Origin: Methylovulum miyakonense HT12
Lineage (GTDB): Bacteria > Pseudomonadota > Gammaproteobacteria > Methylococcales > Methylomonadaceae
Reading direction: 5' to 3'
Assembly: GCF_000384075.1 (NCBI RefSeq)
Contig: NZ_KB913025.1
Span: 934,119-998,118 of the forward strand
Length of the DNA: 64,000 bases
Part shown: positions 24,253-61,360 of the stretch, piece by piece
How the letters are laid out: every line of letters begins with the position of its first letter
Numbering within the stretch: the stretch's first letter is position 1
Program-made: the position numbers and the translations under genes
Notes under the pieces: generated by a model
Seen by the model: the letters and a program-made list of their open reading frames with translations, nothing else
What the model was told of the DNA's origin: nothing
Databases searched by the model: none

Positions 24253-24320
24253 CAAACCCTTCCGGCACGAGGGGTTTGTGGGGTGGATTAGCCACCATTT
24301 CAATTTAACAAACCGGAGAC
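24253..24320 (+). promoter_or_regulatory. Punctuation element, variant loop
   Basis: Stem CAAACCC/GGGTTTG around a loop containing CGGCACGAGG rather than CAGCAC, then ACCGGAGAC at 24312-24320, 6 nt before the ATG at 24327. Confidence 0.65.
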
Positions 24321-24326
24321 AAACTT

Positions 24327-24755
24327 ATGAAACGAACCCACAACATCCTCTGTATTTTAATCACCGCCGTAACCCTGTTTCTCGCGGCCTGCGGCAACCC
24401 CAGCCCCAGCGTCGATTTCGCCACGCTTGAGTCCGCCCGTATGCAGGCCAACGACAACTCCACCTACAATGCCGCCTCTTTCCGCGCCACGCATCCCGAA
24501 TACGCCGAATACTCGGTTTCCGCCCGTGGTGATTCCGCGCAGAAAGACAACTGCCCGCAAGGTGACGGCTGGGCCAGTATTGACCTGACATTGGTTGCAG
24601 GGAATACAAAATCGGTGACAGCCTTGAAATGCTCCACTGTTTCGGAAGCCATCGGTTGCATGGCGGACGTGGACTTCAAGCAGCGAAGCTATGCGTCCCA
24701 GGATGGGAAGTGCGACACATCACTGCCGTTCCCGTTGCCAAAAATCAAAAAGTAA
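24327..24755 (+). CDS. Small lipoprotein
   Basis: 142 residues with a lipoprotein signal (LITAVTLFLAAC, lipobox LAAC). The mature part has four Cys that could form disulphides, a SASRATHPEYAEY-like acidic-aromatic region and a lysine tail. It begins after an ACCGGAGAC leader. Possibly a cell-surface change gene expressed from the phage; role unknown. Confidence 0.6.
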   Translation: MKRTHNILCILITAVTLFLAACGNPSPSVDFATLESARMQANDNSTYNAASFRATHPEYAEYSVSARGDSAQKDNCPQGDGWASIDLTLVAGNTKSVTALKCSTVSEAIGCMADVDFKQRSYASQDGKCDTSLPFPLPKIKK

Positions 24756-24781
24756 GGCCTTGCCGGTCTCCTGACCAGCCT

Positions 24782-24812
24782 ATAACCCATTCATTTGTTC
24801 GAGTGGGTTATG
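24782..24812 (+). promoter_or_regulatory. Intergenic hairpin ATAACCCA/TGGGTTAT
   Basis: A stem of about eight base pairs around TTCATTTGTTCGAG. It occupies the usual punctuation position but lacks the CAGCAC loop; the following leader is ATAGGAGATATTT. Confidence 0.5.
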
Positions 24813-24850
24813 GGGTGGGAAACACCGATAACTTAACATAGGAGATATTT

Positions 24851-24991
24851 ATGTAATTAACCGAATCAGAACAACAAGCCATCAACTCTTTTCTAGGGGG
24901 AAACTGGGCAGATTTTAAAAGATGTGCTGCCGCGTTCCTAGACGAGGACGAGATTGAAGAACTGGGACAAAAACTGGCTGATGGCCTGTAG
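24851..24991 (+). pseudogene. 47-codon frame with TAA as second codon
   Basis: A good AGGAG site precedes ATG, but the next codon is TAA. The same frame then reads LTESEQQAINSFLGGNWADF and on to LADGL with a normal stop, an obviously protein-like acidic sequence. Either the gene was killed by a CAA-to-TAA change, or ATG-TAA is a start-stop element. No alternative in-frame start is seen. Confidence 0.5.
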
Positions 24992-25009
24992 CGTTACTTT
25001 TAATCGCTA

Positions 25010-25018
25010 ACCGGAGAC
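25010..25018 (+). promoter_or_regulatory. ACCGGAGAC leader without hairpin
   Basis: Ends 9 nt before the TerB-like ATG at 25028. Confidence 0.7.
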
Positions 25019-25027
25019 AGAAAACTA

Positions 25028-25444
25028 ATGTTCAAAAACTTACTCAAAAATGGCAAGAAATTACAAAACCGACAGCTCTTTGAGGCCGTCGTTGCAGGGG
25101 TGTTGCTGGTTGCCGCCGCAGGCGGTGACATCGGCAAGGCCGAGCGCGAAAAGATCGGCAAATTGTTGAAAAACAACCCGTCCCTCGACGTGTTCAAAAG
25201 CGAAATCACATCGGTGCAGACTGCTTATGAAAAGCAGTTGGATGCAGACTTTGACTTAGGTAAGTCCCGTTTGGTCAAAGAAATCCGCCAGGTTTCCGAT
25301 ACTCCAGACCACTGCACTGAAGTGTTCCTGAATGTGTTGTCCGTAGCAAAGGCCGATGGCGAGGTTGATGCCAAAGAGCTGGCCGTGATCAAAGAACTGG
25401 CCGACATCCTTGGCCAATCCTTAGAAGAATACGGTTTGGCCTGA
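25028..25444 (+). CDS. TerB-family protein
   Basis: 138 residues. The helical TerB fold is suggested by LFEAVVAGVLLVAAAGGDIG, the paired acidic loops (GDIGKAEREKI; ADGEVDAKELAVI) and the C-terminal LADILGQSLEEYGL. TerB proteins occur with tellurite/stress and phage-defence loci and bind metals at these acidic loops. Here it stands alone, without TerC or TerD. Coupled to a small membrane protein that starts 1 nt after its stop, hinting at a membrane-associated pair. Confidence 0.8.
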   Translation: MFKNLLKNGKKLQNRQLFEAVVAGVLLVAAAGGDIGKAEREKIGKLLKNNPSLDVFKSEITSVQTAYEKQLDADFDLGKSRLVKEIRQVSDTPDHCTEVFLNVLSVAKADGEVDAKELAVIKELADILGQSLEEYGLA

Positions 25445-25445
25445 T

Positions 25446-25553: not shown

Positions 25554-25592
25554 CTTTAACGTCCAGGGATGGACACAACCTAGGGGATAAGT

Positions 25593-25790: not shown

Positions 25791-25798
25791 CCAGACAG

Positions 25799-25838
25799 CC
25801 ATCGCAGCAGCACCTGCTTTGGACTGTTAACCGGAGAC
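25799..25838 (+). promoter_or_regulatory. Punctuation element (imperfect stem)
   Basis: CCATCGCAG-CAGCAC-CTGCTTTGG: seven pairs with two mismatches, loop exactly CAGCAC; ACCGGAGAC at 25830-25838, 4 nt before the ATG. Confidence 0.65.
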
Positions 25839-25842
25839 AGTT

Positions 25843-26163
25843 ATGGGGAAATTATCGGAACTCGTAAAGCTGTACAGTTCTTGGAAGGCCACCGGCTCTA
25901 CCGATTCCAAGAAGCAAATAATAGAGCTGTTGCTCCCAGCGACGACAGGCACGGATTTAAAAAATATCCGCCTTCTGTCTGCCAACCAGCTGCATGTGGT
26001 GTTGTCAGTCCAGTACCACAACCGTAACTGGCCAGTTAAACTCCGCGCCACGTTTCACGGCGTGGAAGTTTTGGTGGCCGGTCAAGACCACAAAGGGGCG
26101 AAGAAGTACATCGCCGAAACATTCGCACGACAGTATATTGGTGGTAGCCATGCAGGAATTTGA
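25843..26163 (+). CDS. Unknown protein, 106 residues
   Basis: Begins MGKLSELVKLYSSWKATGST; a helical start then alternating strands (NQLHVVLSVQYHNRNWPVKL). It overlaps the next gene by 14 nt. No family recognised; starts with an ACCGGAGAC leader. Confidence 0.5.
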   Translation: MGKLSELVKLYSSWKATGSTDSKKQIIELLLPATTGTDLKNIRLLSANQLHVVLSVQYHNRNWPVKLRATFHGVEVLVAGQDHKGAKKYIAETFARQYIGGSHAGI

Positions 26164-26734: not shown

Positions 26735-26739
26735 TCAAA

Positions 26740-26780
26740 ACCCCTCAGCACAGGGGTAGCACACAACCAAAACCGGAGAC
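26740..26780 (+). promoter_or_regulatory. Punctuation element
   Basis: ACCCCT-CAGCAC-AGGGGT (26740-26757), then ACCGGAGAC at 26772-26780, 6 nt before ATG 26787. Confidence 0.85.
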
Positions 26781-26786
26781 AAAACC

Positions 26787-27626
26787 ATGAAAAGATACGC
26801 ACGCTCAATGAAGGTGACCAGCTCACTCCAATCAATACACCCCATCACCGACGACCCGATCATGAAATACGCCCCCAGTATCTTGGCGGCTGATAAGCAT
26901 GAGTCCCGTTCTAAGGGGTACACCTATGTGCCTACCATCCAGGTCATAGACAGGTTACGTAAAGAAGGCTTCCAGCCGTTCTATGTGGCGCAGTCCGGGA
27001 CACGGGATGAAACCCGTACCGATTTTACCCGCCACATCGTCCGCTTACGCCATGCCGACCATATCGGCAAGACAGACGTCAATGAGGTTGTCCTCTTAAA
27101 CTCCCATGACGGTACAAGCTCCTACCAAATGATGGCCGGCGTCCTGAATTTCGTCTGCGCCAACGGCCTGTTTATCGGGGATCTTGTGTCCAATATCCGG
27201 GTGCCACACCGTGGCAATATTGTGGAAGGCGTCATTGAAGGTTCCTACACCATTTTGCAGGAGTTCGAGAAGGTTGACCAAAGCAAGGATGAGATGAAGT
27301 CAATAACCTTGTCGGATTACGAGCGCCGGGCATTTGCCAACAGCGCCATGGCCCTCCGCTATGACCAAGGGGACGAACCGTTCGAACCCAGTCTCCTGCT
27401 ATCAACCCGCCGGATGGCGCAACGCGAACCATCCCTGTGGAACACCTTTAACGTGGTGCAGGAAAGCCTGATCCGTGGCGGGGTGCCAGCCAAAACCAAG
27501 GCCGGTAAGCGCACGACCACCCGTGCCATGAACAACATCCCGGAAGCCACAAAGCTGAACCAGGCCTTGTGGATGTTGGCGGAAAGCATGACTGGCCTGA
27601 AACACAAGCAACTGGAGGCGGCATGA
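26787..27626 (+). CDS. DUF932 phage/plasmid-like protein
   Basis: 279 residues of the DUF932 (formerly DUF945) type common in phages and plasmids. Typical features: HESRSKGYTYVPTIQVIDRL, FQPFYVAQSGTRDE, the MMAGVLNFVCANGLFIGD block, and a C-terminal NQALWMLAESMTGLKHKQ helix. The biochemical role of the family is not established; many lie next to recombination genes. It starts a block of overlapping small genes. Confidence 0.85.
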   Translation: MKRYARSMKVTSSLQSIHPITDDPIMKYAPSILAADKHESRSKGYTYVPTIQVIDRLRKEGFQPFYVAQSGTRDETRTDFTRHIVRLRHADHIGKTDVNEVVLLNSHDGTSSYQMMAGVLNFVCANGLFIGDLVSNIRVPHRGNIVEGVIEGSYTILQEFEKVDQSKDEMKSITLSDYERRAFANSAMALRYDQGDEPFEPSLLLSTRRMAQREPSLWNTFNVVQESLIRGGVPAKTKAGKRTTTRAMNNIPEATKLNQALWMLAESMTGLKHKQLEAA

Positions 27627-29646: not shown

Positions 29647-29690
29647 CCCCAACTTCAACAGCACTTGAGGTTGGGGCACTCACCGGAGAC
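29647..29690 (+). promoter_or_regulatory. Punctuation element, 12-bp stem
   Basis: CCCCAACTTCAA-CAGCAC-TTGAGGTTGGGG with one G-U pair, then ACCGGAGAC at 29682-29690, 5 nt before ATG 29696. Confidence 0.9.
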
Positions 29691-29695
29691 CTACA

Positions 29696-29982
29696 ATGAT
29701 TACCATAGATGAAACCTGTGCACGCCGCCGGGCGTGGCACGCCGCCGCTAGTATCCCTGTCATTGATATGAGTCCACTACACTCGGAAGAGCTGAAGGAC
29801 TGTTTCATTAACGACATCTGCAACTGTGTCGAAACCGACACCTTTTTTTCCGATTGGTTAGAAGAGAACTACCCGGACATCGAGTCATTTAACGGTTTCG
29901 ATGACCTGACAGTTTTACAGGTGTCTGAACTGGTTAGAAGTTCAGCGGAAGAAATCATAACCACAGTGTTGGAGCTTCCATT

Positions 29983-29986: not shown

Positions 29987-32165
<2,179 letters not shown>

Positions 32166-32187: not shown

Positions 32188-32233
32188 GCAACCACCTTTC
32201 AGCACAAAAGGTGGTTGCCAACATACCGGAGAC
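32188..32233 (+). promoter_or_regulatory. Punctuation element, 12-bp stem
   Basis: GCAACCACCTTT-CAGCACA-AAAGGTGGTTGC, then ACCGGAGAC at 32225-32233, 5 nt before ATG 32239. Confidence 0.9.
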
Positions 32234-32238
32234 AACCA

Positions 32239-32907
32239 ATGACCGACGTACAAAGAAACAGCTATGGAAGTATTCTTAACCCCCCTCAATTTGTCCAGAC
32301 TTTGTTAATGGACGCTGAGAGAAAGGGCTGCTGGGAGACAGGTATAGCAGCAGACAAAAAGAATCGCGGATCCTCTATTAACATAGCAGTGTATGGGTTC
32401 AACGAACTTGAACAACTAGCTGTTGTACAGGTCCGAGAATGTCAGTTCCACCCTCGGCGGTTTAATAGAGTACGGAAAGATTATTACCTTTTGGGTAGGA
32501 TAGAAAGTGGGGAGGTGTTTGCACACGCTGTAGATAGCCCATGCCGTTCAAAATTAGCTATGTCCAACCCACAATACTGTGTCGATTATGTACTATCAAA
32601 AATATGGCAGTGTCATATCGACGACATCAAAGACATTATCCGACAAGGAGATGTTGCACTAATCCCTATCATCAGCATACCCGCCACGGCAACACCTGTA
32701 GAAGATGCAGTGGTGATACGAGAAACGCACAAAGTTACAGGGGATGTTTTTAAAGACACTTCTGGTGTGTTGTATTGTAGACGCGGAGCTAAGATAACAC
32801 ATACCAAAGGAGAACATGCTACGATAAAGGCACGGTCTGGATTTTATCGCATACAACCAGGATACCGAGCTAGTGTTTGGGGTTTCTCTACACCTACCCC
32901 AGATTGA
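32239..32907 (+). CDS. Unknown protein, 222 residues
   Basis: Begins MTDVQRNSYGSILNPPQFVQ, placed by the ACCGGAGAC leader rather than an earlier ATG at 32215 that lies in the hairpin. Has a KDYYLLGRIESGEVFAHAVD segment and a C-terminal YCRRGAKITHTKGEHATIKA region. Lies just before another phage protein of the replication arm. Not recognised. Confidence 0.5.
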   Translation: MTDVQRNSYGSILNPPQFVQTLLMDAERKGCWETGIAADKKNRGSSINIAVYGFNELEQLAVVQVRECQFHPRRFNRVRKDYYLLGRIESGEVFAHAVDSPCRSKLAMSNPQYCVDYVLSKIWQCHIDDIKDIIRQGDVALIPIISIPATATPVEDAVVIRETHKVTGDVFKDTSGVLYCRRGAKITHTKGEHATIKARSGFYRIQPGYRASVWGFSTPTPD

Positions 32908-33433: not shown

Positions 33434-33440
33434 CCCCATG

Positions 33441-33486
33441 GTCACCATTTTTCAGCACAAAAATGGTGGCCAATCTAACCGGAGAC
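33441..33486 (+). promoter_or_regulatory. Punctuation element
   Basis: CACCATTTTT-CAGCAC-AAAAATGGTG (stem extendable by a G-U and a G-C pair), then ACCGGAGAC at 33478-33486, 6 nt before ATG 33493. Confidence 0.9.
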
Positions 33487-33492
33487 ATACCT

Positions 33493-35121
33493 ATGACAAT
33501 ATCCCAACTGATTACCGACGAAGTCGAGCAATTTTTCGCCCCTGTATCAACTGACGCAATCAATGCGCTAATTAGCAAGTACCAACGAGACCGAGTTCAA
33601 CTTGAATCGGTTTCTAATATAGTTCTGGATGGTCTCAGCTCAGTATTCCACTACTTCACGAGTGGCAACCTCAAAGGAGAACGATATATCAGCGTAGCTC
33701 CATCCACATTGTTTAATCCTGTTGGCGCAGTGGCATCCCTTAATTCGGCTTATTGGTCACAAGCATTAGCTTTGACTGATGTGTTGGATTTCATGCCACA
33801 AAAACGTAGGGAGGAGTGGAATACACAAATCCACGAAATGACCACGCCGGATTTTGTTGAAGATACGGTGCGTGCCACCCTCATGGATTTAATTTTAATG
33901 CGGTCCCAGTTCTTTTCCGAGCGGGTTGACGGGGTGTTCCGGGCATTGTCGAAAAGTCACGTAACCAACACCCCGGAAGGGTTCAACAAACGGATGATTA
34001 TTGAAAACGTCATCAGCTCTTACGGCACGGTCGAGTATAACAAAGCCGGATACATTCACGATCTCCGTTGTATTGTGGCGAAGTTTATGGGTCTGGAAGA
34101 CCCGTCCGGCCATATCACCGGTAGGCTGATTGACCGGATAAAGAACACCCCTGGCGAATGGGTAGAGCTTGATGGAGGTGCTTTGAGAATCAAAGTATTC
34201 AAGAAAGGCACAGCACATTTGGAAGTCCACCCTGACATGGCGTGGCGATTGAATGCGGTTCTGGCCAGCCTCTACCCCGCTGCTATCCCATCTAAATTCC
34301 GCACCAAGCCGGAATCCAGACCTAAAGAGTATCGCCTTATCCAGCAGCCAATATCGACTGACGTACGGGAGATGTTATATGAAGGGACTTATTTCGATGA
34401 ATCCAACTACCAACGTGTCGGCTCGGATCATCAGAAATACCTTAAAAGAATTCACTCATTTTGTTTTAAATACACATCCAAAGAACACCCAACCACACTG
34501 TCTGCAGCAAAAGCTGCTTTAGAAGCTATTGGTGGTGTTGTGCAAAGCAACGGCGAAATTTGGTTCGACTACAACGCCAGAGACATTATCCAAGAAATTA
34601 TCATCCGTGGTTGTTTACCGGACGACAAGTCACATCAATTCTACCCTACCCCTAAGTGGTTGGCAGAACGTTTGGTGGATATGGCGGAGCTGGAACCGGA
34701 TATGAAGTGTCTGGAGCCTGAAGCTGGCCTGGGGGCGATTGCTGACGTGATCGCCGAGCGTATCCCCAACGACAAAGTAGACTGTGTGGAAATATCGGAG
34801 CTGCGTTGCGAAGTGCTGAAGGCCAAAGGGTATATGACGTTGTGCAAAGACTTTTTGACCATGAAATATGACCATAGATTGTTTAAACCTTGGCCGCGAA
34901 TCATCATGAACCCTCCGTTCAGTGAAGGACGTGCTTTAGCACATGTTAAGCACGCCTCGACTTGGCTGACTGAGGATGGCATCCTGGTTGCCATTATGCC
35001 TGCAAGTTACATTGGCAAAGATATTCTGCCGGGATTCCATATCACATGGTCTGAACGCATCGACAACGCCTTTGACGGAGCTGGCGTGTCAGTAGCCTTA
35101 ATGAAAGCAGTAAAGAAGTAA
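33493..35121 (+). CDS. DUF4942 / N6-adenine DNA methyltransferase
   Basis: 542 residues. The N-terminal 380 residues match the DUF4942 type of phage and mobile-element methyltransferases; the C-terminal part is a Rossmann methyltransferase with an SAM-binding region (CLEPEAGLGAIADVIAERIP) and the catalytic IMNPPFSEG motif (NPPF, as in N6-adenine enzymes). Probably methylates adenine in DNA to evade host restriction or mark phage DNA; no partner nuclease is encoded nearby. Starts at a complete punctuation element. Confidence 0.88.
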   Translation: MTISQLITDEVEQFFAPVSTDAINALISKYQRDRVQLESVSNIVLDGLSSVFHYFTSGNLKGERYISVAPSTLFNPVGAVASLNSAYWSQALALTDVLDFMPQKRREEWNTQIHEMTTPDFVEDTVRATLMDLILMRSQFFSERVDGVFRALSKSHVTNTPEGFNKRMIIENVISSYGTVEYNKAGYIHDLRCIVAKFMGLEDPSGHITGRLIDRIKNTPGEWVELDGGALRIKVFKKGTAHLEVHPDMAWRLNAVLASLYPAAIPSKFRTKPESRPKEYRLIQQPISTDVREMLYEGTYFDESNYQRVGSDHQKYLKRIHSFCFKYTSKEHPTTLSAAKAALEAIGGVVQSNGEIWFDYNARDIIQEIIIRGCLPDDKSHQFYPTPKWLAERLVDMAELEPDMKCLEPEAGLGAIADVIAERIPNDKVDCVEISELRCEVLKAKGYMTLCKDFLTMKYDHRLFKPWPRIIMNPPFSEGRALAHVKHASTWLTEDGILVAIMPASYIGKDILPGFHITWSERIDNAFDGAGVSVALMKAVKK

Positions 35122-35127: not shown

Positions 35128-35169
35128 ACCAACCCTCAGCACAGGGTTGGTAACCACCCCACCGGAGAC
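35128..35169 (+). promoter_or_regulatory. Punctuation element
   Basis: ACCAACCCT-CAGCAC-AGGGTTGGT, then ACCGGAGAC at 35161-35169, 8 nt before ATG 35178. Confidence 0.9.
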
Positions 35170-35177
35170 CCACAACA

Positions 35178-35873
35178 ATGTCGTATCTATTGTACGAAGG
35201 CCCATCCATGCTTGATGGAAAGCCCATCTTCATGGTTCTCACCGGGACGGAGCAACCGTCCCGCAACTCCAAAACTGGCCCCATGTTACAGACGTGGATA
35301 TTGAGGTCAGATGTTAACCCTTTAGATGCAATGCGCTTCAACGAAGACGTTTCTATCTGTGGCAATTGCCCGTTACGAGGGAGTGAAGGCAAAGGGCGGT
35401 CATGTTACGTCACCGTCGCCCGCGCACCGTATCAAATATACAAATCCAAACCCAACCTGAAGAAAATCAAAAAGCACATATTCAAAAACCGGGCGGTTCG
35501 CCTTGGAGCGTATGGTGACCCGGCGGCGATTCCTACTGAGGTGATTGCCGATATTCGCAAACGCGCCATCATGACCACTGGCTACACTCACCAGTGGCGG
35601 ACTTGTGACCAAGACCTTAAGCAGTTTATGATGGCCTCCTGTGACAGTGAGCAGGATCGGGAAGAAGCTAAGGCTTTAGGGTGGGCGACTTTACGTGTTA
35701 AAAAAGCTGACGACTCAAAACTGCCCGGAGAAGTTACCTGCCCGGCTTCTGAGGAAGCCGGTAAGAAAATGACCTGCTATAACTGTGGCCTGTGCCGTGG
35801 CGGCGATACTTCGGATGTCGTTATCAATGTGCATGGGGTGGGATTTAGAAATTTCGGGAGGGTGTATGGGTGA
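35178..35873 (+). CDS. Cys-rich conserved phage protein
   Basis: 231 residues. Opens MSYLLYEGPSMLDGKPIFMV, with NPLDAMRFNEDVSICGNCPL and two Cys clusters: CGNC with a following Cys near 55-70, and a second MTCYNCGLC near 205-212. This layout suggests a bound zinc or iron-sulphur cluster. Similar proteins occur widely in phages near replication genes, without assigned function as far as I know. Confidence 0.6.
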   Translation: MSYLLYEGPSMLDGKPIFMVLTGTEQPSRNSKTGPMLQTWILRSDVNPLDAMRFNEDVSICGNCPLRGSEGKGRSCYVTVARAPYQIYKSKPNLKKIKKHIFKNRAVRLGAYGDPAAIPTEVIADIRKRAIMTTGYTHQWRTCDQDLKQFMMASCDSEQDREEAKALGWATLRVKKADDSKLPGEVTCPASEEAGKKMTCYNCGLCRGGDTSDVVINVHGVGFRNFGRVYG

Positions 35874-36894: not shown

Positions 36895-36913
36895 GTTTTT
36901 AAAGTAATCTATT

Positions 36914-36955
36914 GATCCCCGGTGCAGCACACACTGGGGATCACATACCGGAGAC
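36914..36955 (+). promoter_or_regulatory. Punctuation element, 11-bp stem
   Basis: GATCCCCGGTG-CAGCACA-CACTGGGGATC, then ACCGGAGAC at 36947-36955, 4 nt before ATG 36960. Confidence 0.9.
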
Positions 36956-36959
36956 GAAC

Positions 36960-37049
36960 ATGACACACCCATCAGCCCAGCTATGGGCAATAAGTCCTTA
37001 TTGCCTTTCAAATCTCCAAACATGGACACCTAGAATTTTTAAGGGGTAG
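36960..37049 (+). other. 29-codon N-terminal frame ending in amber, in frame with primase
   Basis: ATG 36960 directly after the ACCGGAGAC leader reads MTHPSAQLWAISPYCLSNLQ through RIFKG, then TAG, then AVAAYRYYRTV in the same frame. The leader position shows that this ATG is the ancestral start of the primase. Either a nonsense mutation bypassed by a GTG start at 37053, a short leader peptide, or readthrough. Confidence 0.6.
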
Positions 37050-42719: not shown

Positions 42720-42728
42720 ATAACCGGA
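42720..42728 (+). promoter_or_regulatory. Orphan ACCGGAGAC leader (approximate position)
   Basis: ATAACCGGAGACAAC at about 42718-42732 is followed by AAATC instead of ATG and no gene; seems a decayed start. Confidence 0.5.
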
Positions 42729-42766
42729 GACAACAAATCCAGGCTAGTAACAATTGAACCCAGCAC

Positions 42767-42827: not shown

Positions 42828-42832
42828 ACAAA

Positions 42833-43657
42833 ATGGCTTTATTAAAACCTGTAGTACCTGTTACAACCTTACCTGAAACTGAAACCGTGCCTGTCGCATC
42901 AGTTCAGGAAACTACAACACACACCCCTACCGTGGACCCTGTGGTGCTCGAAACATTTGCGCCGTTGGAATCATCAGCCCCAGCCCAACAGTTGGCCGAA
43001 GTCCCTGCAACTAACACAGCCGTGGCCACAACTTCCCCACCGGCAGAACCTGTGTCGGGAGGGCATCTTACGATGAGGGATTTCTCTGAGGCCGGTTTCA
43101 ACGGCCTTATCGTTGACTCCCGTACATTTCCGATCATCAACCTGAAGAATGACGGCCACTTCAAGGACATGGATGATTTTGATTATGGTACGGAAATGCG
43201 CGGGCGGCTTCTCTCCTCCGCAGAGAAGATCGTGATGACTGCGAAATACCCAGACCCGTATAAACCAGGAACAAACCTGGAAGACGTGGTGTTTTGCATT
43301 GACGAAACTCGCCTTGCGTCTGGCCGGCTGGTTTCCGATTGGAAAGAAGAAATGGTTAAACGCGGTGGTTCTTCCCAATTTGGAACAACGTTCGAAGAGC
43401 GCCGTTACACAGACGTGTTAGTGGTGGTTGACCAGCCGGGAGTCGAGTACGACGGTGAAATGCGTATCTGGTCTATTGCGCCGACATCCCGTGGCCGCCT
43501 GACAGGGGTTCTAAACATCATGGCAGCAAAAGCCGGATGGAAAACAGCCCAGGAACTGAAGGAACATATGTCGGAAAAAGTGGTGGTGGCAAGCGTTGGG
43601 GCAGCGGTGCCACATGATAAAGGGTCGTTCTATCCTTGGAACTTCAAGGCGCTATAA
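42833..43657 (+). CDS. Unknown replication-cluster protein (possible ssDNA-binding candidate)
   Basis: 274 residues. Residues 1-75 are a disordered Thr/Val/Pro/Ala-rich region; 80-270 form an ordered domain (NGLIVDSRTFPIINLKNDGH; MRGRLLSSAEKIVMTAKYPD; YTDVLVVVDQPGVEYDG). It lies between NrdJb-like and DNA polymerase genes, typical of single-stranded DNA-binding proteins in other phages. I cannot identify the fold; the role is inference. Confidence 0.5.
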   Translation: MALLKPVVPVTTLPETETVPVASVQETTTHTPTVDPVVLETFAPLESSAPAQQLAEVPATNTAVATTSPPAEPVSGGHLTMRDFSEAGFNGLIVDSRTFPIINLKNDGHFKDMDDFDYGTEMRGRLLSSAEKIVMTAKYPDPYKPGTNLEDVVFCIDETRLASGRLVSDWKEEMVKRGGSSQFGTTFEERRYTDVLVVVDQPGVEYDGEMRIWSIAPTSRGRLTGVLNIMAAKAGWKTAQELKEHMSEKVVVASVGAAVPHDKGSFYPWNFKAL

Positions 43658-43674: not shown

Positions 43675-43721
43675 CCCCTACACCCAGCACGGTGTAGGGG
43701 AGTTTTACATTAACCGGAGAT
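43675..43721 (+). promoter_or_regulatory. Punctuation element
   Basis: CCCCTACACC-CAGCAC-GGTGTAGGGG, then ACCGGAGAT at 43713-43721, 5 nt before ATG 43727. Confidence 0.92.
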
Positions 43722-43726
43722 AATTA

Positions 43727-48772: not shown

Positions 48773-48820
48773 TCCGGCATGGTTGACAGCACCTTCCATG
48801 CCGGACACCAAACCGGAGAC
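48773..48820 (+). promoter_or_regulatory. Punctuation element, larger loop
   Basis: TCCGGCATGG/CCATGCCGGA arms around TTGACAGCACCTT, then ACCGGAGAC at 48812-48820, 3 nt before ATG 48824. Confidence 0.85.
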
Positions 48821-48823
48821 ATT

Positions 48824-49588
48824 ATGGATACCTCGATCCCCTACACTCTAGTAGTGTTTGATACGGAGACGACTGGCGTTGACCCAACGGTTGACGAAGT
48901 TTGCCAGTTCGCCTGTATCGCCATCAAAAGCACCCACCCCGAAAATATCGTCGAATTTGAAAGCCTTTGCGACCCTGGCCGGCACATCCCTGAGGAGGCC
49001 ATAGCGAAGCATGGCATACCTAACGAAGCCGTAGTTGGAAAGCCTAAAACCCGAAATCTATTAAATGAAGTTATGGCGGAACTTTTCGAGTTTGCTGCCG
49101 GAACCCAGCTGATCCTTGGCGGCCATAATACAAAATTCGACTGGAATTTCTTGCAGAAGCATGTGTTCATCCCTGATGACACGCTATCTCTTTGCACACT
49201 CCGTATGGCTAGGGTGTTGGCACCTAATTCCGATAACCACCAACTCGAACACCTCTACAGAAACCACTACTCCCTGCAATCCCCACGAACAAAAACCGCG
49301 CACGATGCGCTATGTGACGTGTGGATGAGTTATGAGCTGCTGAATCACTGGCTGTCCCAGCGCCCTGACCTGTCAATACTTGAAATCGCTGACGAACTCA
49401 AGCTCCCTATGAAGCTTGAGACGATGCCGTTCGGCAAAAATAAAGGCCGCCCGTTCTCTGAGATCCCGTATAAAGCCCTGCGTTGGTATGTGGATCAAGG
49501 CAGTGCTATGGATCAGGATGTTAGATTTACGGCAGGAGTTTGGTGTAAGCTATGGGAAACCCCAGCAGAAATGATGGCAAGAGGTTAG
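48824..49588 (+). CDS. DnaQ-like 3'-5' exonuclease
   Basis: 254 residues. DEDDh motifs: VVFDTETTGVD (ExoI), GGHNTKFDWNFL (ExoII), and KTAHDALCDVW (ExoIII, His-x4-Asp). The C-terminal 60 residues include MPFGKNKGRPFSEIPYKALR, a DUF3820-like tail commonly fused to such exonucleases. Start set at 48824 by the leader. It may proofread or trim ends alongside the polymerase. Overlaps the next gene. Confidence 0.9.
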   Translation: MDTSIPYTLVVFDTETTGVDPTVDEVCQFACIAIKSTHPENIVEFESLCDPGRHIPEEAIAKHGIPNEAVVGKPKTRNLLNEVMAELFEFAAGTQLILGGHNTKFDWNFLQKHVFIPDDTLSLCTLRMARVLAPNSDNHQLEHLYRNHYSLQSPRTKTAHDALCDVWMSYELLNHWLSQRPDLSILEIADELKLPMKLETMPFGKNKGRPFSEIPYKALRWYVDQGSAMDQDVRFTAGVWCKLWETPAEMMARG

Positions 49589-50673: not shown

Positions 50674-50716
50674 AGGCTGCCGCAGCACCGGCAGCCTTTT
50701 AACAAAAACCGGAGAC
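50674..50716 (+). promoter_or_regulatory. Punctuation element with T-run
   Basis: AGGCTGCCG-CAGCAC-CGGCAGCCT followed by TTT (could also terminate), then ACCGGAGAC at 50708-50716, 4 nt before ATG 50721. Confidence 0.92.
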
Positions 50717-50720
50717 AACC

Positions 50721-51812
50721 ATGTCCTTATTATTTTGGACAGACCCGCACTTGGGTCTGAACCGCACTTCCCACACCACCCCTGTCTCCCGTGTAAAATT
50801 ACGGGACGCTTTATATACCCAAGCAAATAATATCCTGAACCGATCCCATATAGAGGGCCACTCGGCTATCTGCTTGGGAGACCTGTTTGACACCACCGAC
50901 AATGAAGAAGCCGTCATCGCCCAAGGGGCTTCGATAGCTGGCCGCTGTGCTTTGGTTTTATCAGGCAATCATGATCTCGCTAACCGCGACGGCAAAATGT
51001 CCTCGCTGGAATTGATAGGGCATTTGTCGCCGGATAGCTCGGTTGCATTGGCGGACAGCACATCTGACTATTTTGTTGTTGAATTTCCTGAGGCGAATGT
51101 CATTGTCGTGCCACATAAACGCACCCAAACCTTGTTTGACTTGACTTTGCAAGAAATAGGCCTGCACGTACGCCGGATACCAACTAAGGTTAACATTCTA
51201 GTGTTGCACTGCAACTACGAATCCCCTTTCGCCACTGACGACTCATCTCTGAATTTGACGCGGGATATAGCAGGGCTGTTGCTAGGGGATGACCATGACA
51301 CCAAACAAACCGTAGATTACATCTTGATTGGCCATGAACACATCCCTAGGGCTGATTTCGGCGGCAAGTTGCAGATTCTAGGAAATACCCATCCGACATC
51401 CTTTTCGGATATTTCCGATAAATTTATATGGGAATTCGATGGCACAAAGCTATCACCTGTAAAGATTTGGAGCAAAGACTCTCACTTGGTTAAAGATTGG
51501 GAATGGTTGTTAAACGAAACTTCAACCGCCCCTACTACCCTAGACATGGAGTTGGTTTTTGCAGGTATGCAATTCATCGAGATCAACGGCACCGCCCCCG
51601 CCCGCAAACTGCCAGAGATAGCCAAAGCCGTGCAGAAATTGTGGAGCCAAGCTCCTGATGCCTTGATGATCCGCAACAACGTCAAGTCCGAAGCCGTGCA
51701 AGTCGAAGCCAAAGAAATGAACCGGGCATTGGATATCCCCTCCCGTATTACTGAGGAATTACAAGGATCTCCTTTCGCCAACACCTGGGCCAACTACCTA
51801 AGCCGTATTTAA
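50721..51812 (+). CDS. SbcD/Mre11-like nuclease (T4 gp47 type)
   Basis: 363 residues. Calcineurin-like phosphoesterase motifs in order: TDPHLG (7-12), GDLFD (53-57), GNHD (82-85), HCNY, GHEH. Such subunits form a complex with Rad50/SbcC ATPases and process DNA ends and hairpins. The partner gene follows after 13 nt. Hairpin-opening nuclease activity is noteworthy given the giant palindrome in this genome. Confidence 0.92.
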   Translation: MSLLFWTDPHLGLNRTSHTTPVSRVKLRDALYTQANNILNRSHIEGHSAICLGDLFDTTDNEEAVIAQGASIAGRCALVLSGNHDLANRDGKMSSLELIGHLSPDSSVALADSTSDYFVVEFPEANVIVVPHKRTQTLFDLTLQEIGLHVRRIPTKVNILVLHCNYESPFATDDSSLNLTRDIAGLLLGDDHDTKQTVDYILIGHEHIPRADFGGKLQILGNTHPTSFSDISDKFIWEFDGTKLSPVKIWSKDSHLVKDWEWLLNETSTAPTTLDMELVFAGMQFIEINGTAPARKLPEIAKAVQKLWSQAPDALMIRNNVKSEAVQVEAKEMNRALDIPSRITEELQGSPFANTWANYLSRI

Positions 51813-54788: not shown

Positions 54789-54797
54789 ACCGGAGAC
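54789..54797 (+). promoter_or_regulatory. ACCGGAGAC leader without hairpin
   Basis: 5 nt before ATG 54803. No hairpin separates it from the previous gene, 10 nt upstream. Confidence 0.75.
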
Positions 54798-54802
54798 AAA
54801 AT

Positions 54803-55645
54803 ATGGATTTAACTACATTAACCACTTGCGACCAGCCTGTGGAGTTACGCGAAATACCAAACTCAGACCTATCCTACATGTTGGAACGCTGGGCAGTTGA
54901 GCATCACGACGTTCGGCTTGTTCAGGTTCCTATTGTCAGTGAGGCTATTAACCGTCTTCGCCAGTCGGCTGGCATGTCCAATGCCGACTACCTCACCCTG
55001 GCCGCCGTCACCGCCAAACCAACCCCTGACGGCATCCGTATCCCGCACAACCTGGTCAACAAGATTGAAAACTTGCTGATGGACTTCCGGGACACGGCTC
55101 TGCAACTGGAAGCATTGAAGAAAACCATTTTCTATGGTGATGAGCCAGCCGACAGCGCGATGTGCAGACACCTGTCCGACGAGCAAGCCCAAACCTTGCA
55201 CGCTGTTTTAGGTATGGTCGGAGAAACCGCCGAAATGGTGGACTGCTTTAGTAACAACATGGACGGCGCGAACCGCGAATCCCTTGTGAAAGAATTAGGC
55301 GACCACCGCTGGTACGAGGCCATCCTGTTACGGCTGGTCGGCATTACCCAGGAAGAAATCCACGAAAAGAACATCGCCAAGCTGAAGGCGCGGTACGGGG
55401 ATAAGTTCAATGCGGTGGCGGCCCTGGCCCGTGTGGATGTCAACCCTCACATTGGGTCTGACTTCGACACCATGTCGGCTGAGGATGACATCCTTGGAGA
55501 AGTGACGGAAGGTGCGTTGGCGAAGGTGGCTGGACACTGCACCAAGGAAGGTTGCTTTGTCCATGATGGCGAATCTTGTGCGGATGGGGAGATGCAGCCG
55601 GAAGATTGTGCGAACTTTGTCACCGAAGACCCGTTAGGGAGATGA
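54803..55645 (+). CDS. MazG-like NTP pyrophosphohydrolase
   Basis: 280 residues. Residues 125-195 carry the all-alpha MazG pattern: VLGMVGETAEMVDCF then LVKELGDHRWYEAILLRLVG (Glu/Asp metal ligands) and EEIHEKNIAKLKARYGDKF. The N-terminal 120 residues are an extra helical domain, and the last 60 hold four Cys and are acidic. Members hydrolyse dNTPs or alarmones, shaping the pool for phage DNA synthesis. Confidence 0.82.
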   Translation: MDLTTLTTCDQPVELREIPNSDLSYMLERWAVEHHDVRLVQVPIVSEAINRLRQSAGMSNADYLTLAAVTAKPTPDGIRIPHNLVNKIENLLMDFRDTALQLEALKKTIFYGDEPADSAMCRHLSDEQAQTLHAVLGMVGETAEMVDCFSNNMDGANRESLVKELGDHRWYEAILLRLVGITQEEIHEKNIAKLKARYGDKFNAVAALARVDVNPHIGSDFDTMSAEDDILGEVTEGALAKVAGHCTKEGCFVHDGESCADGEMQPEDCANFVTEDPLGR

Positions 55646-55969: not shown

Positions 55970-56010
55970 CCGGAAGCCCAGCACGGCTTCCGGCCTTTAT
56001 TACCGGAGAC
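55970..56010 (+). promoter_or_regulatory. Punctuation element
   Basis: CCGGAAGCC-CAGCAC-GGCTTCCGG, then ACCGGAGAC at 56002-56010, 3 nt before ATG 56014. Confidence 0.92.
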
Positions 56011-56013
56011 AAT

Positions 56014-57321
56014 ATGAAAACTGAATTTAAGCTCCCAGCTGATAACCGTATTACTGTAACCATTGAAAGGACAGATAAGGATTTGGTAGGTAAATTTGTC
56101 CGATTCGAACATGCAGGCTTTTGCCGGGTTTGTGGATCCCACGAAAATCCCCACGCCGTTGTCAGGGAAATTATCCCAGACCGCAGCGACTCTATCGAAG
56201 CGGCCAGTGGGCACAGCAAAGCTATTGTTAGCTGGTTATCTGCTGAGCCATATCCTTCAGTTATGGAAGCACTCCACCAATCTGTGATGCTTGGGACAGC
56301 TGAAGCCATGAGAGCTGCCAATAACCACACCCTGCCATCATATGAAGAAGGTATAGCGGCTAGTGTATATTCCCCAAAATTTACGGGAAAATCCCTACCG
56401 AAAGCGAAAGGTTCGGTGATTGATGCGGTATTGATATCTATAGCAGCACTCCCGAAAAATCTCAATGGCCGAATGGTGTCTAAGACAAAGTCGAAAGGCT
56501 TATTTATTAATGGCCTTGATGAGTACAGCCTCTGTTCCAACCCAAACTTGGCGGACGCGTATATAGTCGGAACTCATGCAAGTAAGGTCAGCCGTGCCGG
56601 AGTACATGGGCGGAGAGTGACGCTGAGGTTGGTTAAAGGCTCAACAACCGCCGAATTTACGGGGCCGGTTGTTTACGGGAACCTAACCTCAGAACCTCCT
56701 AACACAGATGAGTTGTTGGGGCAGTATGTAGAAGCTTGTTCAGATAGGGGTTTGTTTTCTCTAACTCTTAATGAAAACATTGCAGTGGGGAGAGTTGTAA
56801 AAGTAGTACCAAGTCCTCAGCCTTCTAACACCATTGTGGGAGTGGTGTTCAGAGATCAGGGAACTTACGAACATATCACCAGCTGTTGGGCTAAGTGGAG
56901 TGAACTAAACCAGATCATTCAAGAAACAGAAACAGAAACACCTACCCAAGCTCTGCGCCACAACGCAGGGAAAGCCCCTCTCAGCTTTATATTCTCTGCA
57001 CCTCACGCCCTGGAAGGGGTATCCCGTGTCCTGGAGTTCGGCGCCAACAAATATGCGCGTGACAACTGGAAAAAAGGGTTCCCTTACACGGAATTGGTGG
57101 ACAGCTTGTGCCGCCACTTGAAGGACTTCATGAATGGCGATGACAACGACGCGGACAGCGGTCTGCCCCACGTGGACCACATCCTTTGTAATGCGCTGTT
57201 CCTGTCCGAACTGACTCGGACACGGTCTGAATTCGACGACCGTGGCATCCCTAAACCCACACTACCGGAAATAGATTTACGGGATAACGTCCTTAACTAT
57301 GGTAAAGGAGGCGCAGAATGA
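56014..57321 (+). CDS. Two-domain protein with C-terminal dATP/dGTP diphosphohydrolase-like (DUF5664) domain
   Basis: 435 residues. The N-terminal 300 residues are unrecognised, with a possible Cys pair (FCRVCGSH). Residues 312-410 carry the DUF5664 pattern: LRHNAGKAPLSF, FGANKYARDNWKKGFPYTEL, SLCRHLKDFMNGDDNDADSG and LPHVDHILCNALFL. This His/Asp-rich family includes phage dATP/dGTP diphosphohydrolases, known from phages that replace adenine by 2-aminoadenine. No PurZ is visible here, so the role may be ordinary pool control. Confidence 0.8.
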   Translation: MKTEFKLPADNRITVTIERTDKDLVGKFVRFEHAGFCRVCGSHENPHAVVREIIPDRSDSIEAASGHSKAIVSWLSAEPYPSVMEALHQSVMLGTAEAMRAANNHTLPSYEEGIAASVYSPKFTGKSLPKAKGSVIDAVLISIAALPKNLNGRMVSKTKSKGLFINGLDEYSLCSNPNLADAYIVGTHASKVSRAGVHGRRVTLRLVKGSTTAEFTGPVVYGNLTSEPPNTDELLGQYVEACSDRGLFSLTLNENIAVGRVVKVVPSPQPSNTIVGVVFRDQGTYEHITSCWAKWSELNQIIQETETETPTQALRHNAGKAPLSFIFSAPHALEGVSRVLEFGANKYARDNWKKGFPYTELVDSLCRHLKDFMNGDDNDADSGLPHVDHILCNALFLSELTRTRSEFDDRGIPKPTLPEIDLRDNVLNYGKGGAE

Positions 57322-58835: not shown

Positions 58836-58845
58836 GAGTGTAACC

Positions 58846-58896
58846 ACCCTCCAACCCAGCACGGTTGGAGGGTTTATTTTGATAAAGACCGGAGAC
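58846..58896 (+). promoter_or_regulatory. Punctuation element, 11-bp stem
   Basis: ACCCTCCAACC-CAGCAC-GGTTGGAGGGT, then ACCGGAGAC at 58888-58896, 4 nt before ATG 58901. Confidence 0.92.
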
Positions 58897-58900
58897 ATTA

Positions 58901-59161
58901 ATGAATGAACGTATAGAACTAAACGAAGAAGCTGTAACCACCATCACTGTAGCTTCCGCTATCTGCTCAGTAATCCTAGGTATAGCAGGAATGTTCTGCT
59001 ACAGCAGTGTAAATTCCACAAATGGCCAACAGGCTTTGATTGCTAAAGCCATCCAAGCCGGAAAATCTCCGCTGGAAGCCAAGTGCGCCTCGATGTCCTC
59101 ACCAGGGGAAGATAAAGCGTGCTTGCTGGTAGCAGCAGCTGGGGTAGGGGCACAGCAATGA
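58901..59161 (+). CDS. Small membrane protein, 86 residues
   Basis: A membrane helix near residues 12-35 (TTITVASAICSVILGIAGMF) then a small polar domain with two Cys. Its stop overlaps the next start (ATGA). Same unit as the secreted HNH-like gene and thymidylate synthase. Confidence 0.55.
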   Translation: MNERIELNEEAVTTITVASAICSVILGIAGMFCYSSVNSTNGQQALIAKAIQAGKSPLEAKCASMSSPGEDKACLLVAAAGVGAQQ

Positions 59162-59499
59162 AACGGATCATTATAACCACTTTGTTATTATTGCCTGTAG
59201 TATCTGACGCGAGTTGCCGCAGTGCCACGCAAAAGCACCACTTCGATGTCCAGCAAGGTTACCCCTATGGCCGCAAAGGCTACGTGGTTGACCATATCTG
59301 CCCTTTGGAGCAAGGCGGGGTCGATGCGCCAATCAACATGCAATACCAAACTATTGCCGAAGGGAAGGCGAAAGACCATGGTCGTGGGGCAGTTGGGGAG
59401 TTGACCCCTGAAGGCAGGAAACTGTACTGCAATGCCACGAACTCCACCCCAACCCGTCAGGTATTCAATTGTAAAGGCCACAACGGAGGCGACCAATGA
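59158..59499 (+). CDS. Secreted HNH-like nuclease
   Basis: 113 residues. A signal peptide ([17 protein letters not shown]) precedes an HNH-like core: [20 protein letters not shown] then MQYQT, with the His-x-n-Asn pattern, and four Cys that could form disulphides in the periplasm. Export of a nuclease suggests action on incoming DNA or on DNA in the periplasm. Lies between a membrane protein and thymidylate synthase with overlapping ends. No known immunity gene is recognised. Confidence 0.72.
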
Positions 59500-60275
59500 A
59501 ACAATATTTAGATCTATTGCAAGAGTTGCTAGATAGCGGCAACCAAAAAGGCGACCGTACTGGCACTGGAACGCTTTCTAAGTTCGGTCATCAGATGCGG
59601 TTTGATTTGTCGAAGGGTTTTCCCTTAGTGACGACGAAGCGGATCCACATGAAGTCGGTGATTCACGAGTTGCTGTGGTTCCTTAAAGGCGACACCAATA
59701 TCAAGTACTTGAATGACAACGGTGTCCGAATTTGGGATGAGTGGGCTGACGAAAATGGGGATTTGGGACCAATCTACAGTGAACAGTGGCGTAACTGGGA
59801 CGGATGTATTGACCAAATTGCCGACACGATTGCCGAAATCAAACGCAACAAAGACTCCCGTCGCCTTGTTGTCACTGCATGGAATCCATCGGATGCCCAT
59901 AAGGTAAAGCTACATTGGTGTCATTGCCTATTCCAATTTTACGTCCACAACGGCAAGTTATCCTGCCAACTCTACCAACGTTCGGCGGACACGTTTTTAG
60001 GGGTTCCGTTTAATATTGCCAGCTACGCTCTCCTTACCCACATGATTGCCCAACAATGTGACCTAGACGTTGGGGAGTTTATTTGGACTGGAGGAGATAC
60101 CCATCTGTATTTGAACCACATCGAACAGGCTAAACTGCAGCTAACCCGTGACCCTCAGCCATTACCAAAACTGGTCTTGAACAAGGCCGACTCAATAGAC
60201 GACTACAAGCCTGAGGACTTCGTCATTTCCGGGTACATCCCTTATGACGCCATTAAGGCGGAGGTGGCGGTATGA
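59496..60275 (+). CDS. thyA: Thymidylate synthase
   Basis: 259 residues, full length for ThyA. Signature [20 protein letters not shown], the YSEQWR motif (usual YGxQWR), catalytic Cys142 in [31 protein letters not shown] and [11 protein letters not shown]. Makes dTMP from dUMP and methylene-tetrahydrofolate, in series with the DHFR two genes downstream. Start overlaps the previous stop. Confidence 0.96.
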
Positions 60276-60724
60276 TGGTTTATCAAGGTGAAAATTCAAA
60301 GCACTGCGTGGCGGCGTGTATTGCCACAATCCTTTGCTGTACCCTTGAAGAAATATTATCCACAGCGGCAGGTTTGGGAATCAACCCGGATATAGGGATG
60401 TCAGGGGTGGATGAATTAAGGGTGTTGGCGCAGTTAGGTTGGGAAAATAATATCGTTCAGGTTTCCAGCCTTACCAACCAACTCATCCTTGGCCGAACAT
60501 ATCTGTTAACTGTGCCGTCTCTAAACACCAGAGGTGGCATACACCGTATCGTTGCCAAAGCCAAAGCGGATCAAACATTTGAAATACATGACCCGTGCCC
60601 ATCTGGATTACGGTATGGTATAGACCATCCCCTAACAGGCTGGACAGAGGTCACCGAATTTGTTGGGGCAAATGTGTGGCCTGATGAGGCAACTGATCAT
60701 AAGATGGGGGATGGTAATTTATGA
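60272..60724 (+). CDS. C39-like papain-fold protein
   Basis: 150 residues. The start [13 protein letters not shown] (Cys12 and Cys16), [10 protein letters not shown] (His near 93) and EIHDPCPSG (Asp near 111) fit the Cys-His-Asp order of C39-type peptidases. Short, without transporter domains. Similar small proteins occur between thymidylate synthase and DHFR genes in other phages. Activity is unproven. Confidence 0.65.
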
Positions 60725-61314
60725 GAGTGCCCATAAACCCAAACAAATTCGCCCGCATTGGTCAGGCACTGTGCCCACAGCTACCTATCCCCAAACCGGT
60801 AGCGGTGTCAATGATCGTGGCCATCGGCCAAAACCATGTCATCGGTGTAGACGGGAAACTGCCTTGGCACATCCCGGAAGACCTGAGACGATTCCGGTAT
60901 ATTACGGACGGGGCTGTCGTTGTGATGGGGAGAGCCACTTGGGAATCTCTCCCATCAAAGCCATTAAAAAATCGGCTAAACATTGTGCTGTCCAAAGAGT
61001 GTCTTGAACCGTTCACGGCAAAGATATTGCAGCCGTTGTCTATACAGTGTATGGACATTCATAGTGTGTTTATGTATGCCGAAACTTTCGCTCCAGGTAA
61101 AGAAATATTTATTATCGGGGGAGCACAAATATATGACGCTTGGTGGCCGTATGTGACCAAGGTGTACTTAACTGAAGTAAGTAAGGAGATACCTAGAGGG
61201 GGTGCCACTACAAAATACAGGATGCCTAGGGATTTCAAGACATGTTTTATGGTGGTAGCGCGGGACTGGTGGGGTGATTGCGCCTTTTCCGTTTGGGAAA
61301 GGGCTAACAGATAA
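60721..61314 (+). CDS. folA: Dihydrofolate reductase
   Basis: 197 residues; about 25 N-terminal residues precede the usual start. MIVAIGQNHVIGVDGKLPWH, the PEDLRRFRYIT stretch, VVMGRATWESLP, and the NADPH-binding IFIIGGAQIYDAWW are all present. Regenerates tetrahydrofolate used by the thymidylate synthase upstream. ATG overlaps the previous stop. Confidence 0.94.
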   Translation: MRVPINPNKFARIGQALCPQLPIPKPVAVSMIVAIGQNHVIGVDGKLPWHIPEDLRRFRYITDGAVVVMGRATWESLPSKPLKNRLNIVLSKECLEPFTAKILQPLSIQCMDIHSVFMYAETFAPGKEIFIIGGAQIYDAWWPYVTKVYLTEVSKEIPRGGATTKYRMPRDFKTCFMVVARDWWGDCAFSVWERANR

Positions 61315-61324
61315 TTCACATATC

Positions 61325-61360
61325 CCCGCCGGCAGCACCTGGCGGGTATTTACCGGAGAC
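61325..61360 (+). promoter_or_regulatory. Punctuation element
   Basis: CCCGCCGG-CAGCAC-CTGGCGGG with one G-U pair, then ACCGGAGAC at 61352-61360, 4 nt before ATG 61365. Last copy in the window. Confidence 0.9.

Follow-up and report, generated by a model that had tools for sequence, protein, structure and literature searches.

Fourteen gene starts in the replication arm of a prophage of Methylovulum miyakonense HT12 carry the sequence CAGCAC followed by a leader, ACCGGAGA, 3-8 nt before the ATG, and at 12 of the 14 CAGCAC lies in the loop of a perfect hairpin with a stem of 6-14 bp whose sequence differs from site to site. The stretch analysed (the window) is 64,000 nt long and corresponds to bases 934119-998118 of a 4.69 Mb single-contig bacterial genome. 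From the pattern of conservation we give a probability of roughly 0.5 to the reading that hairpin and leader form a cis-acting RNA start cassette that is read by one putative trans-acting factor. Held more tentatively is the wider proposal of a genome-wide RNA operator, distinct from the start-associated sequences (SAS) and extended start-associated sequences (ESAS) of cluster K phages, in which a dedicated factor would read CAGCAC at 14 unrelated hairpins and, together with the leader, time the translation of gene units.

A preliminary description had reported about 14 intergenic hairpins with an invariant CAGCAC loop, each followed by the leader 3-8 nt before an ATG. The number stands, with 14 starts that have both CAGCAC and leader, and the four stems given there as examples were found in their places (Table 1). 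The loop is CAGCAC at most sites, with exceptions: a 7-nt loop, CAGCACA, at two perfect sites (32200 and 36925), an enlarged loop at 48787, and CGGCAC at 24253. Beside the 12 perfect hairpins there is one that is imperfect (48787) and one that is weak, with only 4 closing pairs (25808). The distance from leader to ATG is as described at all 14 sites, and at the 12 perfect sites the leader begins 3-14 nt past the hairpin, but it has the variants ACCGGAGAA at 30104 and ACCGGAGAT at 43713, and six leaders occur without a CAGCAC hairpin: 18650, 23572, 25010, 54789, 42819, which has one mismatch, and 42723, which is not followed by an ATG within 12 nt.

The association of loop, stem, and leader is confined to one strand and far exceeds chance. 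CAGCAC occurs 62 times on both strands against 32 expected, 44 times on the plus strand and 18 on the minus strand. A leader (ACCGGAGA or ACTGGAGA) lies within 55 nt of 14 of the 44 plus-strand copies, and a perfect stem of at least 8 pairs encloses 11 of the 44, all 11 of which have the leader; on the minus strand the corresponding counts are 0/18 for the leader and 0/18 for the stem. Each of 200 dinucleotide shuffles of 23-62 kb gave no CAGCAC stem of at least 8 pairs (11 observed), and the exact sequence ACCGGAGAC, observed 17 times, had a shuffle mean of 0.13 and a maximum of 2. Among the 56 perfect plus-strand hairpins with a stem of at least 8 pairs and a 6-nt loop, nine have CAGCAC and every other loop appears at most once; the same scan of the minus strand yields GTGCTG seven times, which is the complement, that is, the plus-strand sites read backwards. 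CAGCAC is also the only loop of at least 5 nt found in at least three copies on perfect stems, and seven comparison phage stretches have none. When 13 sites were folded, minimum energies lay between -9.9 and -21.8 kcal/mol, with z-scores of -1.6 to -5.0. The variant hairpin at 24250 has a z-score of -3.9, while the values for the weak site at 25808 (-1.3) and for three leaders, at 25010 (-0.4), 54789 (-0.8), and 42819 (+1.4), are unremarkable. A covariance model has 14 matches of at least 31 bits, all on the plus strand between 25.8 and 61.4 kb, 13 of them being the sites from which the model was built and therefore matching by construction. The restriction to the right arm that had been described is evident from CCGGAGA before ATG, which occurs 18 times on the plus strand of 23-62 kb, never on the minus strand there, and on neither strand of 1-18 kb; a single exact minus-strand leader (10749) has no CAGCAC in the preceding 75 nt. 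At the Rfam gathering threshold the window has no match besides a tRNA elsewhere, and 29.6-37.0 kb has none at E<=1.

What is conserved in the stems is their pairing. The 12 perfect sites have 12 different stem sequences, and any 5-mer of the 5' arm is common to at most three of them. In an alignment of 13 sites no column is invariant besides loop and leader, 82.9% of cells pair, and all nine aligned pairs are altered on both sides. The covariation score, calculated from sites of one genome aligned on their common loop and not from homologous phages, is 0.946, against 0.221 in shuffles (reached by 0 of 500) and no more than 0.490 for structures with slid arms. Within this one genome, the earlier observation that stems vary while complementarity is kept is thus borne out, and the alignment shows that this type of site demands stem pairing. 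The stems are also oriented: among 120 pairs, C-G (5' C, 3' G) is found 57 times and G-C 17 times, with G-U at 4. Oriented stems and a strict strand bias favour an RNA element over a DNA cruciform, though they are not proof of it.

The leader is invariant as ACCGGAGA in 13 of the 13 aligned sites, including bases outside GGAG, which is presumably its only part that pairs with the anti-Shine-Dalgarno sequence of the host. Judged by its sequence, the leader is conserved beyond the Shine-Dalgarno core, in agreement with the preliminary description. The exact leader with its ATG occurs genome-wide (4.69 Mb) 17 times in the forward direction, always in the prophage, and once in reverse elsewhere; with 17 of its 18 exact copies before ATG confined to the prophage, it is therefore not a general ribosome-binding site of the host. 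Its placement follows the arrangement of the genes. Among 39 starts from our own gene calls, the leader is present at 19 of the 24 with an upstream gap of at least 20 nt (first gene included) and at 0 of the 15 that overlap or lie closer (Fisher p 8e-7), the 20-nt threshold having been set after the data were seen and one relaxed leader match, at 58647 (two mismatches), being left out of the count. The starts with room upstream and no leader are 25593, 28358, 36278, 41741, and 58647. Because the leader stands at gapped starts and never at overlapping or abutting ones, the cassette marks the first gene of a unit, and the coupled genes behind it have none.

We propose a loop-reading factor because selection by such a factor would keep the loop invariant and leave the stems free. 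The cassette would act on the rightward transcript of the replication arm, with the six-base loop CAGCAC as the recognition element and a stem that need only pair, followed by a short spacer, an extended ribosome-binding site ACCGGAGAC, and the ATG. Cassettes would head the units that lack translational coupling to the preceding gene, and one candidate RNA-binding factor, of phage or host, may read the loop at all 14 places and control the units jointly, through translation initiation or through RNA processing and stability, making them a phage RNA regulon. Binding of the loop by a phage protein is plausible. The anatomy of the sites, their strand and placement, their covariation, and, within the sequences searched, their confinement to the prophage are direct results; that the element acts as RNA, that a factor binds its loop, and which way the effect goes are what we infer from the arrangement. 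If this reading is true, a double-stranded DNA phage would have an operator system that works post-transcriptionally across its genome, and the factor, if it exists, would bring a new RNA-binding pair and a route by which a phage could time many genes after transcription; the twelve natural stem variants under one loop are a ready-made test set. Pairing of the loop with downstream sequence was considered and rejected, as matches extend over only 3-5 nt.

Several results weigh against a start cassette read by a dedicated factor. Neither Pfam nor PHROGs recognised an RNA-binding domain in the right-arm proteins tried, many of which have no match, so the co-occurring RNA-binding protein that the preliminary description would have us look for did not appear, and two candidate proteins folded without an alignment gave poor models, with a mean predicted local distance difference test score (pLDDT) of 58 and 44. 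The hairpin hardly alters the predicted accessibility of the leader (mean 0.61 for the real sequence and 0.56 with the 5' arm shuffled, 14 sites), and the accessibility at 30081 and 33453 shifts in the direction opposite to the mean. The six leaders without a CAGCAC hairpin indicate that the two modules are separable. In 154 of 500 shuffles at least as many pairs show two-sided changes, and G-U pairs are few, so that wobble pairing is no proof of RNA. Finally, no second genome or phage with the cassette was found among the sequences searched.

The best of the alternatives, in our view an unlikely one, is that the hairpins are passive intercistronic structures that stabilise 3' ends or block the run-in of ribosomes, joined to a strong phage ribosome-binding leader, with no dedicated factor and with the loop kept by common descent or folding preference. 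The hairpins do lie mostly close behind the upstream stop, starting 3-22 nt past the nearest one at 11 of the 14 sites (upstream open reading frames (ORFs) hand-picked, some short and unsupported), and strong intergenic hairpins without a repeated loop are found in distant relatives. In tblastn comparisons both the polymerase and the terminase share about 30% identity with Vibrio phages (PS14A.1/K478 group), and the polymerase does so also with SHOU24 and the Pseudomonas phages PMBT3/Lana; in SHOU24 and PS14A.1, both of Vibrio, the genes for primase, SNF2-type helicase, polymerase, exonuclease, and SbcC-type protein are arranged similarly, at about 30% protein identity. Strong hairpins occupy 10/13 gaps of at least 30 nt in SHOU24, 5/9 in PS14A.1, and 5/12 in PMBT3 (mononucleotide-shuffle means 2.33, 1.29, and 0.54; coding sequences hand-copied from part of each record), as they do 12/22 such gaps in the window (mean 1.50). 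The relatives' hairpins have no shared loop (no loop of at least 5 nt three times), and several have T-rich tails. The presence of hairpins without a shared loop in relatives and the barely changed leader accessibility are the reasons for giving the passive explanation the weight that we do. It leaves unexplained, however, an invariant 6-nt loop on unrelated stems and the conserved leader bases outside GGAG, and common descent would keep the stems as well. Because distant relatives also have intergenic hairpins, a hairpin at the unit boundary seems to be older than this prophage. The repeated leader ACCGGAGA is missing from the Vibrio stretches of SHOU24 and PS14A.1, the former having a single ACCGGAGAT before an ATG, at 5365; both have instead a GGTCTNAGACC palindrome with fixed arms. 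The palindrome TTGGTCTNAGACCAA has 7 copies in each of the 50-kb stretches of PS14A.1 and SHOU24, several of them just before a start codon.

Less probable again are roles in transcription, in which the hairpins would be intrinsic terminators or pause sites, or antitermination sites of the boxB/nut type, through which the arm is read stepwise. Four of the 14 hairpins look terminator-like on the plus strand (30073, 43675, 55970, and 58846), in 6 of the 14 the 8 nt past the stem include four or more T, T-rich tails also follow several hairpins in the Vibrio and Pseudomonas relatives, and the first half of the arm exceeds shuffles in terminator-like sites (35 against a mean of 22.3, standard deviation (sd) 5.4; the second half has 24 against 20.0, sd 3.9). 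A G+C-rich stem with a U tract is nevertheless seen at 4/14 only and so does not characterise the set, the T-tail has 0-3 T at 8 of the 14 hairpins, and the scan is unspecific, since it also scores 26757, 30094, and 35145 on the minus strand, whether or not they score on the plus strand; it is because just 4 of 14 hairpins are terminator-like that we regard transcriptional roles as less likely. Nor would such a role explain the strict association with a leader just before ATG. For antitermination in particular, no N-like protein was found among the right-arm proteins scanned, and 14 copies are many for nut sites.

Two further readings were rejected: RNase III sites of the T7 type, for which the stems were judged too short given the stem length that such sites need, and the mobile start cassette suggested in the preliminary description, since stems are unrelated between sites. 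Promoters formed by DNA hairpins, of the kind used by the virion RNA polymerase of phage N4, are very improbable: in the published account, as excerpted, these have a conserved loop and conserved stem bases with other stem bases free while the hairpin is kept (PMC4496689), a likeness to the hairpins described here, but they are DNA elements with a loop of 3 bases, compared with 6-7 nt here on stems that reach 14 bp, they need a phage RNA polymerase and no RNA polymerase domain was found in the proteins scanned (including a 1596-amino-acid left-flank protein, which has a weak match to tape measure proteins), and they would not need a leader beside the ATG.

Short RNA hairpins with a fixed loop and a tolerant stem, read by an RNA-binding protein, are familiar from lambda boxB and the coat-protein operators. 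The hairpins described here share the conserved loop and tolerant stem, and differ in number, with 14 copies as opposed to one or few, each with a fixed leader before a start codon.

The leader has closer counterparts. In the published descriptions, the SAS of cluster K mycobacteriophages and of cluster EF Microbacterium phages are 13-bp motifs that contain a ribosome-binding core, lie a short distance upstream of the start codon, and have one main orientation. Cluster K phages have 11-19 copies, found in the non-structural half only, without exact copies in M. smegmatis, and conserved beyond pairing with rRNA (PMC3203893), and cluster EF phages have ten copies of a SAS of their own (PMC7302621). 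The leader is an SAS in kind: short, repeated, in one orientation, a few nt before the start, in the non-structural arm, and conserved beyond the Shine-Dalgarno core. It is unrelated in sequence, phages, and hosts, the consensus being GGGATAGGAGCCC and GGGAAAGGACCCC in clusters K and EF and ACCGGAGAC here. Published accounts call the roles of start-associated repeats in phages unclear or ill-defined (PMC3203893, PMC11373665, PMC7302621). The resemblance to SAS/ESAS noted earlier therefore applies to the leader and its placement and fails for the hairpin. Like the hairpin, ESAS form a second element just upstream of some SAS sites and contain inverted repeats in cluster K; however, their arms are conserved in sequence and were judged by the authors not to support RNA pairing (PMC3203893), and they contain putative SigA promoters (PMC11373665). 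Because ESAS arms are conserved, judged non-pairing as RNA, and carry putative promoters, the hairpin cannot be classed with them: it has neither the conserved 17-bp inverted-repeat arms nor a conserved SigA-like promoter, and conservation falls on its loop while its arms vary freely. Its stems are compensatory, a property reported to be missing from cluster K ESAS, and together with the fixed loop they point to RNA and a loop-reading factor. Operators or promoters acting at the level of DNA sequence, as ESAS might, are highly unlikely; they would fit the like placement upstream of start-associated leaders in a non-structural arm, but the stem sequence is unconserved, invariant columns occur only in loop and leader, promoter-like matches are about as frequent as in shuffles (26 against a mean of 22.1, and 14 against 20.2), and the alignment has no conserved -35/-10. 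Stretches of AnnaSerena, Quhwah, Hyperion, and TM4 have no loop of at least 5 nt seen three times on perfect stems of at least 7 bp, and a GTAGAG element of AnnaSerena, considered as a second conserved-loop hairpin, was rejected in the repeated-loop scan.

Among the sequences searched, the repeated leader and invariant loop are the prophage's own: covariance-model searches of the genome, of family and class genomes, and of selected phage and viral-contig records, a check that the preliminary description had suggested, found no comparable set outside the prophage. With polymerase, SNF2 helicase, SbcC, and primase as queries, viral contigs returned only the prophage's own IMG/VR record; a phage collection has no nucleotide match to 24.9 kb of the arm, and plasmids none to 5 kb. 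The methyltransferase matches other phages at 40-49% identity (best 80 of 98), and 78 of 79 non-self loci searched with the model have no comparable sites (best 18.5 bits). The terminase matches three fragments at 67-74% identity, from IMGVR_UViG_3300032103_000126, 3300013232_000348, and 3300045995_001321, and two remote ones, its metagenome relatives being fragments of structural genes only; the three fragments have about 64-73% DNA likeness in longer pieces, all in the structural part, and their best model match is 11.1 bits. One terminase relative has several CCGGAGA, of which 0 of 5 on the strand of the terminase gene stand as a leader before a start, one of them having an ATG triplet, possibly out of frame, 9 nt on. 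The contigs of two metagenome-assembled genomes (MAGs) with polymerase relatives have no such hairpins, and one of the two genomes has one exact leader elsewhere. A loose pattern scan of viral contigs gave several sites in the prophage's own record only, among the matches listed, and a strict pattern, satisfied by only 4-5 of the prophage's own sites, gave 11 stretches, 3 from its own record and 8 others with single matches and no closing stem by eye.

Covariance model R1 reaches at best 20.5 bits on 19 records, with one match in PS14A.1 at 19.6 bits. In 237 family genomes, leader and ATG occur at most 8 times per strand in any other genome (one has 7 forward), with clustering of positions checked in part of the genomes, and R1 has 1-2 matches of 20.9-23.4 bits in each of 10 others, with no comparable set. 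In 369 class genomes (own included) at E<=1e-5, one other genome has a single 30.2-bit site, in another register and with no ATG within 20 nt; outside the prophage, its own genome has a 27.2-bit match at 2656159 with no perfect stem by eye. The open-licence literature yielded no paper naming this motif, which does not show its absence from print. Separately, an unrelated contig, IMGVR_UViG_3300017788_000002, has leaders of the form GCACCT(G/A)ACCCC...ACCGGAGAC at 82, 592, and 1178, a few nt before ATG: three within 1.2 kb, an SAS-like repeat with a ACCGGAGAC core.

The element that carries the cassettes is an integrated prophage of about 76 kb in a Dus-family gene, its size following from an 18-bp direct repeat that links genome position 919659 with window position 61913. 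The ends of the repeat-bounded element are genome 919659 and 996048; the left copy lies within the Dus-family gene and is adjoined by an integrase gene, and the right copy (window 61913-61930) is adjoined by a PrtN/excisionase-type gene (61552-61830). The left part has terminase, portal, protease, and capsid genes on the minus strand, and the right arm has genes for ligase, methyltransferase, primase, SNF2 helicase, family A polymerase, DnaQ-type exonuclease, SbcD, SbcC, ThyA, DHFR, and others. The 29-codon ORF that starts at 36960 is in the primase frame and ends just ahead of the primase start (37053). The irregular site at 42723-42835 is perhaps a decayed cassette copy.

Table 1. Cassettes, variant sites, and solitary leaders in the window (coordinates are window positions; all on the plus strand).
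Feature	Coordinates	Hairpin	Leader	ATG, gene, remarks
Variant hairpin	24249-24282	14 bp, loop CGGCAC, then a second hairpin before the leader	24312-24320	ATG 24327; leftmost site
Weak cassette	25804-25845	CAGCAC, 4 closing pairs in a longer imperfect fold	25830-25838	ATG 25843; model 35.4 bits
Cassette	26740-26789	6 bp, loop CAGCAC	26772-26780	ATG of DUF932 protein gene
Cassette	29647-29698	12 bp	29682-29690	ATG 29696
Cassette	30073-30119	8 bp	ACCGGAGAA 30104-30112	ATG of NAD-dependent DNA ligase
Cassette	32188-32241	12 bp, loop CAGCACA	32225-32233	ATG 32239
Cassette	33439-33495	14 bp	33478-33486	ATG 33493, DNA methyltransferase
Cassette	35128-35180	9 bp	35161-35169	ATG 35178
Cassette	36913-36962	12 bp, loop CAGCACA	36947-36955	ATG 36960 of 29-codon ORF
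Cassette	43675-43729	10 bp	ACCGGAGAT 43713-43721	ATG of family A DNA polymerase
Imperfect cassette	48773-48826	10-bp outer stem, CAGCAC in enlarged loop	48812-48820	ATG of DnaQ-type exonuclease
Cassette	50674-50723	9 bp	50708-50716	ATG of SbcD-like nuclease
Cassette	55970-56016	9 bp	56002-56010	ATG of dATP/dGTP pyrophosphohydrolase-type gene
Cassette	58846-58903	11 bp	58888-58896	ATG 58901
Cassette	61325-61367	8 bp	61352-61360	ATG 61365; overlapping excisionase-type gene (61552-61830) next
Leader without CAGCAC hairpin	23572-23587			ATG 23585
Leader without CAGCAC hairpin	25010-25030			ATG 25028, TerB-like gene
Irregular site	42723-42835	unpaired CAGCAC (42761)	exact leader without ATG, then ACTGGAGAC (42819)	ATG 42833
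Leader without CAGCAC hairpin	54789-54805			ATG 54803, MazG-like gene
Leader	18650-18673	no CAGCAC hairpin of at least 6 bp		12-nt spacing to ATG

The family A DNA polymerase (43727-48457) is 1576 amino acids long, begins with a 5'-3' exonuclease domain at its N-terminal end, and has long stretches separating the known domains; it is much longer than its relatives in the MAGs, which have 970 and 1021 amino acids. At 22570-22691 on the plus strand there is a 122-nt tRNA match (RF00005, 36.5 bits), about 50 nt longer than its 71-position model. It has the look of a tRNA-like sequence placed inside a second one, and ARAGORN finds no tRNA. At 24851-24856 on the plus strand an ATG well spaced after AGGAG is followed immediately by a stop, and the same frame is open for 44 codons further. 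Two alike intergenic hairpins, at 24245-24300 and 24775-24820, have a CAGCCTAYAAACCC-like 5' arm and GGGGTGG after the 3' arm, with loops that differ.

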